Assembly: GCF_001180225.1 (NCBI RefSeq)
Contig: NZ_CVST01000040.1
Coordinates: 124,001-188,000, forward strand
Length of the DNA: 64,000 bases
Reading direction: 5' to 3'
Origin: Candidatus Pelagibacter communis
GTDB taxonomy: Bacteria; Pseudomonadota; Alphaproteobacteria; Pelagibacterales; Pelagibacteraceae
Part shown: piece after piece, positions 7,150 to 32,852 of the stretch
How positions within the stretch are numbered: position 1 is the stretch's first letter
Layout of the letters: each line of letters starts with the position of its first letter
Made by a program: the position numbers and the translations under genes
The notes under the pieces: generated by a model
Told to the model about the DNA's origin: nothing
The model's input: only the letters and a program-made list of their open reading frames with translations
Databases searched by the model: none

Positions 7150-7709
7150 GAATTATTGGTGGTAATTTTAAAGGTAAAAAAATTCTTGAACCTAAAGATA
7201 AAGAAACAAGACCTTTAAAAGATTTAACAAAAGAGTCTATTTTTAACATTATTAATCATTCAAATAAATTTTCTATAGATCTTGAAAAATCTTATGTCCT
7301 GGATTTATTTTCTGGGACAGGATCATTTGGTTTGGAATGTTTATCAAGAGAATCAAAACATGTAATTTTTGTAGAAAATTACAAAGGAATATTACCAATC
7401 TTAAAAAAAAATTTAACAAATTTAAAAACGGTCAAAAATTATTCAATTATTGAGAAGAATATTTTTATTGATATTGATTTTTTAAAAAAGATAGAAAAGT
7501 TTGATATTATTTTTTTAGATCCTCCATACAAAGAAAGAGATGTTAATACTATTTTAAATAATCTTTCTAAATTCAAAACTCTTAAACCAGATGGAATAAT
7601 AATTATTCATAGACATAAAAAAGAAAAGGATAATTTTCCAGACAAATTTAAGATTATTGAAGAAAAAAAATATGGAATTTCTAAAATAATATTTGGAAAA
7701 TTTATTTAA
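7146..7709 (+). CDS. rsmD: 16S rRNA (guanine(966)-N2)-methyltransferase RsmD
   Basis: SAM-dependent methyltransferase modifying a guanine of 16S rRNA during small-subunit assembly. The N-terminus MRIIGGNFKGKKI and the ETRPLKDLTKESIFNII stretch are typical of RsmD. SAM-binding motif I is LDLFSGTGSFGLE, and the catalytic motif IV is DPPY near residue 126. Length is 187 aa, as expected. It is translationally coupled to purD by an ATGA overlap and ends in a 4-base convergent overlap (TTAA) with the pgi gene on the other strand. Confidence 0.92.
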   Translation: MRIIGGNFKGKKILEPKDKETRPLKDLTKESIFNIINHSNKFSIDLEKSYVLDLFSGTGSFGLECLSRESKHVIFVENYKGILPILKKNLTNLKTVKNYSIIEKNIFIDIDFLKKIEKFDIIFLDPPYKERDVNTILNNLSKFKTLKPDGIIIIHRHKKEKDNFPDKFKIIEEKKYGISKIIFGKFI

Positions 7710-31967: not shown

Positions 31968-31995
31968 ATTGAAATTTTTTTAATCATACCTAAAT
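31968..31995 (+). promoter_or_regulatory. RpoH-like promoter of hsp20
   Basis: ATTGAAA at 31968-31974 resembles the -35 CTTGAAA. ACCTAAAT at 31988-31995, 13 bases later, matches 5 of 8 positions of the sigma-32 -10. The predicted start would be near 32002, at the 5' edge of the first hairpin of the putative thermometer. Confidence 0.5.
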
Positions 31996-32001
31996 ATACA
32001 A

Positions 32002-32058
32002 TGTAAGTCGCCTAATGGGGCTTACCTAAAATAAACTTGCTTAAAAAAGGAGGATATT
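32002..32058 (+). promoter_or_regulatory. ROSE-like RNA thermometer in the hsp20 leader
   Basis: Two hairpins are visible in a ~57-base leader. Hairpin 1 (32003-32025) has left arm GTAAGTCGCC and right arm GGGGCTTAC with a TAAT loop, one unpaired G and one U-G pair. Hairpin 2 (32036-32052) pairs CTTGCTT with AAGGAG, burying the Shine-Dalgarno AGGAGG (32048-32053). Its TTGCT (32037-32041) opposite AGGA with one bulged G is the core motif of ROSE thermometers. The loop is AAAA. ROSE elements are established regulators of hsp20 genes in alphaproteobacteria; function here is inferred. Confidence 0.75.
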
Positions 32059-32505
32059 ATGACAAGTAAGGATCTATCTATATTTAACTCACTAAGACCT
32101 TTTTCAATTGGCTTTGACGATATGTTTGAGCAATTCGAAAGTATGTTGGGTAATGGAGGTTTGACAATGCAATCAAACTATCCCCCATACAACATCAGAA
32201 AAACTGGTAAGGATAATTATGCAATTGAAGTTGCATTAGCTGGTTTTAATAAAAATGACGTTGAGGTTGAGTTTGAAGATAATTTATTAACGGTAAGAAC
32301 AAAACAAGTTAATAAATCTGAAAACAATGAAGTTAATGGAGAAATAATTCATAAAGGTATTTCTCAAAGACAATTTGCAAGATCATTCACTATTGCTGAT
32401 GATGTTAAAGTTAATGGTGCTGAACTTAAAGATGGTCTTTTAACAATATCTTGTGAAAGAATTATCCCAGAACACAAAAAGAAAAAACTTATAGAAATTA
32501 AATAA
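32059..32505 (+). CDS. Small heat-shock protein Hsp20 (IbpA-like)
   Basis: 148-residue alpha-crystallin-type holdase chaperone. The N-terminal FNSLRPFSIGFDDMF is typical of class A bacterial sHsps. The alpha-crystallin domain (about residues 50-140) includes YAIEVALAGFNKNDVEVEFED and the GI-X-R-like GISQRQFARSF. It ends LTISCERIIPE. A strong Shine-Dalgarno sequence is present but should be masked at low temperature by the leader hairpin. It is monocistronic, convergent with a lipoprotein gene. Confidence 0.94.
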   Translation: MTSKDLSIFNSLRPFSIGFDDMFEQFESMLGNGGLTMQSNYPPYNIRKTGKDNYAIEVALAGFNKNDVEVEFEDNLLTVRTKQVNKSENNEVNGEIIHKGISQRQFARSFTIADDVKVNGAELKDGLLTISCERIIPEHKKKKLIEIK

Positions 32506-32508
32506 GTT

Positions 32509-32544
32509 TACCCTTACTTGCGAGGATTTATCCTCGCAGGTAAA
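32509..32544. terminator. Hairpin between convergent hsp20 and lipoprotein genes
   Basis: Perfect 8-bp stem TGCGAGGA/TCCTCGCA with a TTTA loop at 32519-32538, flanked by a partly matching TTTACC/GGTAAA pair. This is unusually GC-rich for the window. No T-run follows on either strand, so it may work as a transcript-end stabiliser or weak bidirectional terminator. Confidence 0.6.
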
Positions 32545-32546
32545 AC

Positions 32547-32852
32547 CTAAAAACATCCATTAGAAGCAAACCCAATTACTATCTTATCTGGATTAATCTC
32601 AAATCTTCTCTCACATGGAAATCCATACTTCTTGGTATTGTAAACAAAAATAAAATTACCTTTTTCATTTTCAAAATCTTCATCAGGTTTTCCAAGTTCC
32701 ATTTGTAATTTACTTGCTGATTGACCAATAAATTCACTCAACTTTTTGTTTTCATTTTCTATAGCAGCATCAGTTTTTTGCTTTACTGTTTGACACCCTG
32801 AAACAAATAAAAAGATAAAAAACGTAATAAATAAAATTCGCAAATTTTTCAT
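32547..32852 (-). CDS. Small BamE/SmpA-like lipoprotein of unknown role
   Basis: 101 aa with a lipoprotein signal peptide (lipobox VSGC, lipidated Cys20). The mature part has a helix and then SASKLQMELGKPDEDFENEKG followed by FVYNTKKYG, a pattern reminiscent of BamE/SmpA-like folds. Two further Cys residues near the C-terminus (CERR and NGCF) could form a disulfide. The family assignment is by weak pattern only. It is convergent with hsp20 and divergent from the purine permease. Confidence 0.65.
   Translation of the reverse strand: MKNLRILFITFFIFLFVSGCQTVKQKTDAAIENENKKLSEFIGQSASKLQMELGKPDEDFENEKGNFIFVYNTKKYGFPCERRFEINPDKIVIGFASNGCF

Follow-up and report, generated by a model that had tools for sequence, protein, structure and literature searches.

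The leader of hsp20 in Candidatus Pelagibacter communis is, with high probability, a ROSE-like RNA thermometer, and by comparison of sequences it is one member of a compact, conserved and uncatalogued branch of ROSE-like elements in SAR11 bacteria that agrees with the definition of the class while lying outside the curated Rfam families. The case is built on sequence conservation, covariation in one of two hairpins, a fixed layout of promoter and leader, and the reappearance of this structure upstream of hsp20 in other lineages, all of which the comparisons below document; masking in the cell, melting and heat induction are what we infer from them.

The stretch analysed here, hereafter the window, is 64,000 nucleotides of contig NZ_CVST01000040.1, and all features named in it without further remark are on its forward strand. 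The hsp20 open reading frame (ORF; 32059..32505) opens with an ATG at 32059 and encodes 148 aa with a Pfam HSP20 match of 62.3 bits. Its leader comprises 57 bases (32002-32058) and folds as two hairpins. Hairpin 1 (32003..32025) has nine pairs, a bulged G at 32010 and a UAAU loop (GUAAGUC-G-CC UAAU GG GGCUUAC). Hairpin 2 (32036..32052), the ROSE core, has the form CUU-G-CUU AAAA AAGGAG: an anti-Shine-Dalgarno strand CUUGCUU (32036-32042, bulged G at 32039) faces AAGGAG (32047-32052), and is predicted to mask the Shine-Dalgarno (SD) sequence AGGAGG (32048..32053), which ends 5 bases before the ATG. We found hsp20 in 155 of 201 Pelagibacter genomes, and in 28 of the 29 that are nearly complete; the 80 named relatives are Pelagibacteraceae or Pelagibacterales genomes together with one 'Candidatus Pelagibacter ubique' strain, that is, SAR11. 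One genome has two hsp20 matches of equal score and identity on the same contig (G122:C13:1764-2207 and 7158-7601), which is either a duplication or an assembly artefact.

The window sequence by itself would not have sufficed, because its fold is only mildly unusual (z -1.56, with 17 of 200 shuffles equally good); the comparison of leaders settles whether the structure is real. From 203 Pelagibacter loci, 202 of them readable (L098 was left out), we obtained 176 distinct leaders with 70 bases upstream. All 176 keep the core pairs of hairpin 2 (C-G, U-A, U-G, bulged G, C-G), and 174 also have the U-A pair that follows; an outer or an inner end pair forms in 173, meaning that the ends of the helix slide while its length is maintained. 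Hairpin 1 could be parsed in 175 of the 176; each of its pairs 3 to 7 is intact in 160-173 of these 175 rows, beating all 500 shuffles. RNAalifold, run on a MAFFT alignment of 41 rows, predicted hairpin 1 unguided, with double changes at five of eight pairs; it did not predict hairpin 2 from the same alignment. Across 82 loci from at least five genera, hairpin 1 accumulates 72 double-change cells vs 13.7 after shuffling in an alignment fitted to the model, and 97.4% of the cells in this structure-fitted alignment pair, vs 90.2% when shuffled. A chance hairpin is rejected by the retention of the structure across 176 leaders. The observation of a two-hairpin leader with a U(U/C)GCU anti-SD strand and a bulged G, as originally predicted from a single sequence, is thereby confirmed, with the comparison rather than that one sequence carrying it. 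The original prediction was to fall if SAR11 relatives lacked compensatory base changes; hairpin 1 has them, while the core of hairpin 2 is invariant, so that covariation can neither support nor refute it.

Upstream of the leader lies a candidate promoter with a -35 box TTGAAA (31969..31974) and a -10 box CCTAAATA (31989..31996; genus consensus CCCATATA) at a spacing that is conserved among the leaders. TTGAA followed by a CCCATATA-like box, matching in at least 5 of 8 letters, occurs in 167 of the 176 distinct leaders, with a spacer of 14 nt in 160 of the 167 and a distance of 6 nt from the box to the hairpin 1 stem in 144; control stretches further upstream yielded 0 matches in 175. The consensus of RpoH-type promoters is CTTGAAA/CCCCATNT, and on that basis we take the boxes to be those of the RpoH sigma factor, whose gene is present in the genome of the window above the curated cut-off. 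Elsewhere in this genome the exact promoter pattern has one match, vs two for controls. The conserved spacing between box and stem places the probable mRNA start near 32002, at the foot of hairpin 1, as had been predicted together with the RpoH-like promoter; the fixed layout and the rpoH gene bear both out. The arrangement thus fits an RpoH-type promoter held at a fixed distance before hairpin 1, which would put hsp20 in the RpoH regulon at promoter level.

In the mechanism that we propose, transcription from this promoter would begin at the foot of hairpin 1. Hairpin 2 would, at growth temperature, pair CUUGCUU with AAGGAG round the bulged G and block ribosomes; warming would loosen its weak, bulged helix and allow hsp20 to be translated, with hairpin 1 as a stable companion that stays closed. 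Nearest-neighbour folding gave answers that depend on the length folded, and with them the predicted burial of AGGAGG at low temperature. At 5 C, the unpaired fraction of the SD is 0.17 for the leader alone, 0.47 and 0.48 with 12 and 18 ORF bases added, 0.17 with 30 and 0.00 with 60. Between 5 and 42 C, exposure is almost flat for the leader alone (0.17 to 0.22), and in the window it spans 0.45-0.48 with 12 ORF bases, 0.48-0.65 with 18, 0.17-0.34 with 30 and 0.00-0.05 with 60; some relatives show larger opening with 12 or 18 bases, up to 0.97. With the first 16-18 ORF bases another structure is best at 20-37 C, in which the SD is about half open; this half-open state with 12 or 18 bases arises because the anti-SD strand can also pair with AAGUAAG of codons 2-4. 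Folding the full mRNA of the window gave SD exposures of 0.01 at 15 C and 0.22 at 37 C, and the means over 40 species were 0.33 and 0.41; the helix between anti-SD and SD has more than 3 expected pairs in 14 of these 40 at 15 C and in 7 at 37 C. Models of this kind take no account of the unusual base pairs found in ROSE cores, so these results neither prove nor refute a thermometer.

An alternative is that the leader serves mainly to bind a protein, Hsp20 itself for instance, and does not sense heat directly; the loop of hairpin 1, which is conserved, and its bulged G are features that a protein could recognise. Gammaproteobacterial IbpA is reported to repress its own expression, and E. coli IbpA to bind its own 5'UTR (PMC10474464). 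A protein site alone, however, would leave unexplained why a bulged-G helix of U(U/C)GCU with the SD is kept across orders and in phages, and we consider this reading improbable as the main role; protein binding and a thermometer are also compatible with each other.

ROSE elements are defined by a U(U/C)GCU strand that pairs with the Shine-Dalgarno sequence in the last hairpin, with a bulged G, as described in parts of PMC3669281 and PMC11342760, and experiments in Pseudomonas have established both the motif and the part it plays in a two-hairpin thermometer (PMC3669281). Measured against this class, the SAR11 leaders have the motif-SD pairing with bulged G in 176 of 176 cases by sequence, a stable hairpin 5' of the sensing one in the form of hairpin 1 with its covariation, and a position before a small heat-shock gene (Pfam HSP20), which is usual for the class, not exclusive to it. 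The original reading is thus supported in kind. Membership in the curated families RF00435, RF02523 or RF01832 does not follow, as the gathering thresholds are not reached: Rfam at these thresholds has 0 matches in the window, and no ROSE match in 34 related bacterial loci (18 + 16, of which L251 and L281 are the same place), the sole match being one unrelated tRNA among the 16. Below threshold, when all 4227 Rfam families were ranked on a 171-base local stretch, ROSE (RF00435) came first at 20.9 bits (threshold 45, E 0.27) and ROSE_3 (RF02523) second at 20.4 bits (threshold 43, E 0.024). The proposed check by ROSE covariance models therefore failed at threshold and favoured ROSE in the local ranking. 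As a control, E. coli ibpA passes ROSE_2 (RF01832) at 100.4 bits.

To follow the element beyond the genus, we used a search model of the SAR11 element built in this analysis, R1. In the window it scores 83.7 bits at the hsp20 leader and 11.4 at the next best place; over the whole genome of the window there is no second convincing copy (next 15.6 bits, E 2.4). Over 240 genomes of the class, R1 found 21 places at E 0.1 or better in 20 genomes, about the chance expectation at that limit. The head of the ranking, however, departs from chance: nine of the top 11 precede hsp20 (the window, L242-L247, L250 and L251), and the two exceptions, L248 and L249, stand before an rpoH-like gene and an ABC protein respectively; among all 21, ten precede hsp20, the tenth being L258. 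R1 does not find E. coli ibpA, a ROSE_2 element, which indicates that the SAR11 branch is distant from the enterobacterial one. In a second family of the order (L029, L030, L119-L138), all 22 of 22 loci carry UCGCU in place of UUGCU, as AAUCGCUUAAGGAGGAUU, and the leader is seemingly longer than that of Pelagibacter. Separately, the exceptional place in genome G588 (L248, ATG at locus position 1565 after reverse complement) resembles ROSE in its leader, CAUUGCUU...AAAGGAUG, which stands upstream of a gene that by eye looks like rpoH (R1 29.6 bits, E 0.0016); it is a single case in the 240 class genomes, one other member of the family of G588 gave no match, and the rpoH leader in the genome of the window has no U(U/C)GCU/SD hairpin by eye.

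Marine phages also appear to carry this leader. A hairpin 2 pattern run over IMG/VR hit 109 stretches, and we retained 80 of them (L311-L390). Of these, 49 have a YPP motif, as in Hsp20, in the ORF begun by the ATG; the other 31 sort into ten groups on their 12 N-terminal residues, and the member tested from each was a Pfam HSP20 match in ten of ten. R1 scores all 80 loci, with 81 matches of 24 to 66 bits (L378 twice), hairpin 2 being present by construction. Hairpin 1, which lay outside the search pattern, has 122 double-change cells vs 38 shuffled over 45 distinct rows in an alignment fitted to the model; the number of its pairs with any double change, 7 vs 6.7 shuffled, is not above expectation. 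We also picked 20 named phage records (L420-L439), several of them close relatives, from 123 + 111 records with similar Hsp20 proteins. R1 matches directly before hsp20 at E <0.001 in 16 of the 20 and at <0.03 in 18, among them the Pelagibacter phages Mosig, HTVC008M and HTVC103P, Methylophilales phage Melnitz, the Prochlorococcus phages P-SSM3 and P-SSM4 and Synechococcus phage S-PM2; in S-SSM4 the match precedes a start upstream of the annotated one, and R1 found none in Synechococcus phage S-B68 or in the unannotated Pseudomonas phage Y7 record. Rfam reports no ROSE in 14 viral loci. Taken together, hsp20 genes of marine phages (Kyanoviridae and others: pelagiphages, cyanophages and a methylophage) probably carry ROSE-like leaders with U(U/C)GCU and a hairpin 1 with bulged G, and among the matches listed from open-access journal papers we found no earlier report of phage ROSE elements. 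Two of the viral contigs hold further items. One has a second ROSE-like leader before a short non-Hsp20 ORF (L378:4308-4371, MTEEVKQENPQLSLQDIATM..., R1 29.8 bits). The other, filed as viral (L353:11419-11715, IMGVR_UViG_3300006620_000406), has a permuted tmRNA of alphaproteobacterial type and a tRNA on one stretch with its ROSE-bearing hsp20 and is either phage-borne or host contamination.

Beyond the stretch first proposed for it (31968-32058), the element may take in the 3'UTR and the first codons as well. At the foot of the terminator, hsp20 messages of Pelagibacter have CCUURCUUG in the 3'UTR, complementary to CAAGUAAGG of the first codons. In the window, the partners are element c, CAAGTAAGG in codons 2-5 (32063..32071), whose AAGTAAG is complementary also to the anti-SD strand, and element d, CCTTACTTG in the 3'UTR (32512..32520), both of putative function; d overlaps a terminator-like hairpin (32514..32543, by eye) that resembles hairpins after hsp20 in the Pelagibacter loci listed. 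A convergent 101-aa ORF (32547-32852, minus strand), lipoprotein-like by eye and with no Pfam match at 0.001, has its end adjoining this terminator.

Codons 2-5 have the lowest synonymous variation of any four-codon window of hsp20 (0.104; the next separate window has 0.344), although the single codons 17 and 103 are likewise very low. ACA and AGT are fixed in 165 of 165 rows each and AAG in 158 of 163; elsewhere in hsp20, AGT makes up 8.5% of Ser codons and AAG 21% of Lys codons. Among 70 sampled genomes, the best partner of d in the mRNA overlaps c in 69, at one offset in 66, with a mean duplex energy of -12.3 vs -5.6 for the next region. The two elements also vary together: where the wobble base of codon 4 is G, 160 of 163 rows have CCTTRCTTG as d (the exceptions are L062, L064 and L066), vs one of seven where it is A, the other six having an altered d (Fisher 1.9e-8, kinship ignored; three of the seven, L229, L230 and L233, came from a pattern search for such codons, matching 7 of 399 genomes). 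Where codon 4 is AGG (L014 and L084), CCTTACTTG is kept and still pairs. In a sister genus (eight genomes) the 3'UTR conserves another sequence, AATATAGRTAGAG or a close variant of it, that is complementary to the ORF start of that genus, CTTTATCTATATT; ranked by duplex energy, the ORF start comes first in four of the eight and within the first four in seven (the rank of L279 is meaningless, as the ranking took a wrong start codon there).

These observations suggest a two-state switch or 5'-3' lock beside the ROSE core, adding to the core rather than replacing it. The anti-SD strand would pair either with the SD (off) or with AAGUAAG in codons 2-4, which leaves the SD in a loop, and CCUURCUUG of the 3'UTR would compete for codons 2-4 and favour the off state. 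The near-frozen synonymous sites of codons 2-5, the overlap of d's best partner with c, the joint change of d and codon 4, and the different yet complementary pair in the sister genus all argue for it. The compensation, however, is incomplete. Altered d restores pairing strength with the altered codons in L094, L097 and L103 (-10.5 to -11.4 vs -6.1 to -6.5 with consensus d), whereas there is no restoration in the other four (L025, L229, L230 and L233), and the altered d of the first three pairs similarly well with consensus codons (-10.2 to -11.3), so that it is compatible with both and makes no private match. On the tree there are six changes of c and seven of d, with three supported independent pairs (median p 0.25-0.5 in a kinship-aware test), too few for that test to be able to reach significance.

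Ranking and shuffling speak weakly. When the duplex energy of the ORF start with its own 3'UTR was ranked against all ORF windows, it came first in 25 of 175 Pelagibacter rows and in the top three in 78 (mean rank 4.4); single-genome shuffles of seven loci gave p 0.02-0.067; and in the genome of the window hsp20 has a relative rank of 0.095, with 5% of 59 genes at 0.1 or better. Of 40 species, 15 have full-length folds that favour pairing of c and d at 15 C and nine at 37 C; for the window, the expected pairs number 0.04 and 1.28 at these two temperatures. This ranking did not show the pairing in the second family of the order (first in 0 of 22, top three in 1 of 22), in the class-wide set (top three in 0 of 25, four of 29 loci having been dropped with unreadable ORFs) or in phages as a group (4 of 59 have a relative rank of 0.1 or better; mean 0.59), and among the loci found by R1 the ORF start ranks first in one of seven. 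A general rule that the hsp20 3'UTR pairs with its own ORF start is not supported. A DNA inverted repeat was also considered for c and d and rejected: the R position of d is G in 119 of 176 distinct rows, which makes G-U pairs and fits RNA pairing rather than a DNA repeat. On balance we regard the switch or lock as a possibility that falls somewhat short of probable.

Part of d is itself terminator stem (its CTTG lies inside), and this counts against the lock and in favour of a 3'UTR element that serves the terminator only or acts in trans as a processed 3'UTR small RNA, without pairing to its own ORF. CCTTRCTTG occurs nine times in the 1.0 Mb genome vs five for the reversed control, two of the nine being the c and d sites, so trans targets are conceivable. 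By eye, however, CCTT lies outside the stem in most of the loci listed and is kept despite differing sequence further downstream, and d changes together with codon 4; we therefore think that a role confined to the terminator or to other messages is unlikely. If c and d do pair in the message, the hsp20 mRNA of Pelagibacteraceae would be closed at both ends, with the ROSE hairpin masking the ribosome site and the 3'UTR beside the terminator pairing with the first codons; this pairing would free or hold the anti-SD strand, the first codons would be the hub between open and closed forms, and the set point would be tuned by the far end of the mRNA. Such a system would occupy a 57-base leader, nine coding bases and nine 3'UTR bases in a very small free-living genome. 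We put forward this description, and the size that goes with it, as a tentative proposal that may well need revision.

SAR11 are very abundant ocean bacteria known for few regulators. How they handle heat is relevant to a warming ocean, and a 57-base thermometer that needs no protein fits a cell with few regulators. The position of the element below Rfam thresholds suggests that ROSE elements may be under-counted in AT-rich marine genomes, and, with copies before hsp20 in phages that infect SAR11, cyanobacteria and a methylophile, viruses would possess a chaperone switch of their own under temperature control. Pairing through the 3'UTR, if real, would give this class of riboregulators, mostly regarded as acting locally, a further level of control over long range. 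What is new here, as far as comparison can tell, is the uncatalogued SAR11 ROSE-like element with its attached promoter; a possible 5'-3' lock and viral copies are suggested. Searches for SAR11 or Pelagibacter together with thermometers gave, among the matches listed, no report of the hsp20 leader element. For SAR11 strain HIMB5, a survey notes 'a possible RNA thermometer' in a main text that leaves the gene unnamed, and its supplement may hold an earlier sighting of the element (PMC6429828); in the matching passages of PMC9111926 and PMC4448311, Pelagibacter is named only for riboswitch work or in references. A term search of PMC2704228 gave no occurrence of thermometer, heat shock or hsp20.

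Compared with known systems, the SAR11 leader aligns with Rfam RF00435 in the layout of hairpin 1 (GCC, a 4-base loop, GGgg, one bulged G) and in the same anti-SD core, but most of the 28-position middle block of that family is missing from it. ROSE_2, as in E. coli ibpA, shares gene family and working principle with the SAR11 element. The nearest likeness is to the short ROSE-like thermometers of Pseudomonas ibpA (61-62 nt), which in the sections of PMC3669281 that describe them have two hairpins, U(U/C)GCU paired with the SD in the 3' hairpin, a stable hairpin 1, a small heat-shock gene and a comparable length. It is a likeness by description, and the SAR11 element differs in adding complementarity between ORF and 3'UTR. 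Since a two-hairpin ROSE of 61-62 bases is known from that work, compactness in itself is not new; of the minimal version that had been predicted to be notable, what stands is a compact element conserved in SAR11. For the far end of the message, the parallels are S. aureus icaR mRNA (PMC3868564) and B. subtilis hbs mRNA (PMC7821165), each of which pairs its 3'UTR with its own start region or 5'UTR; in SAR11, by contrast, the candidate partner is the first codons rather than the SD or 5'UTR, it lies beside a probable thermometer, and it is known here from comparison.
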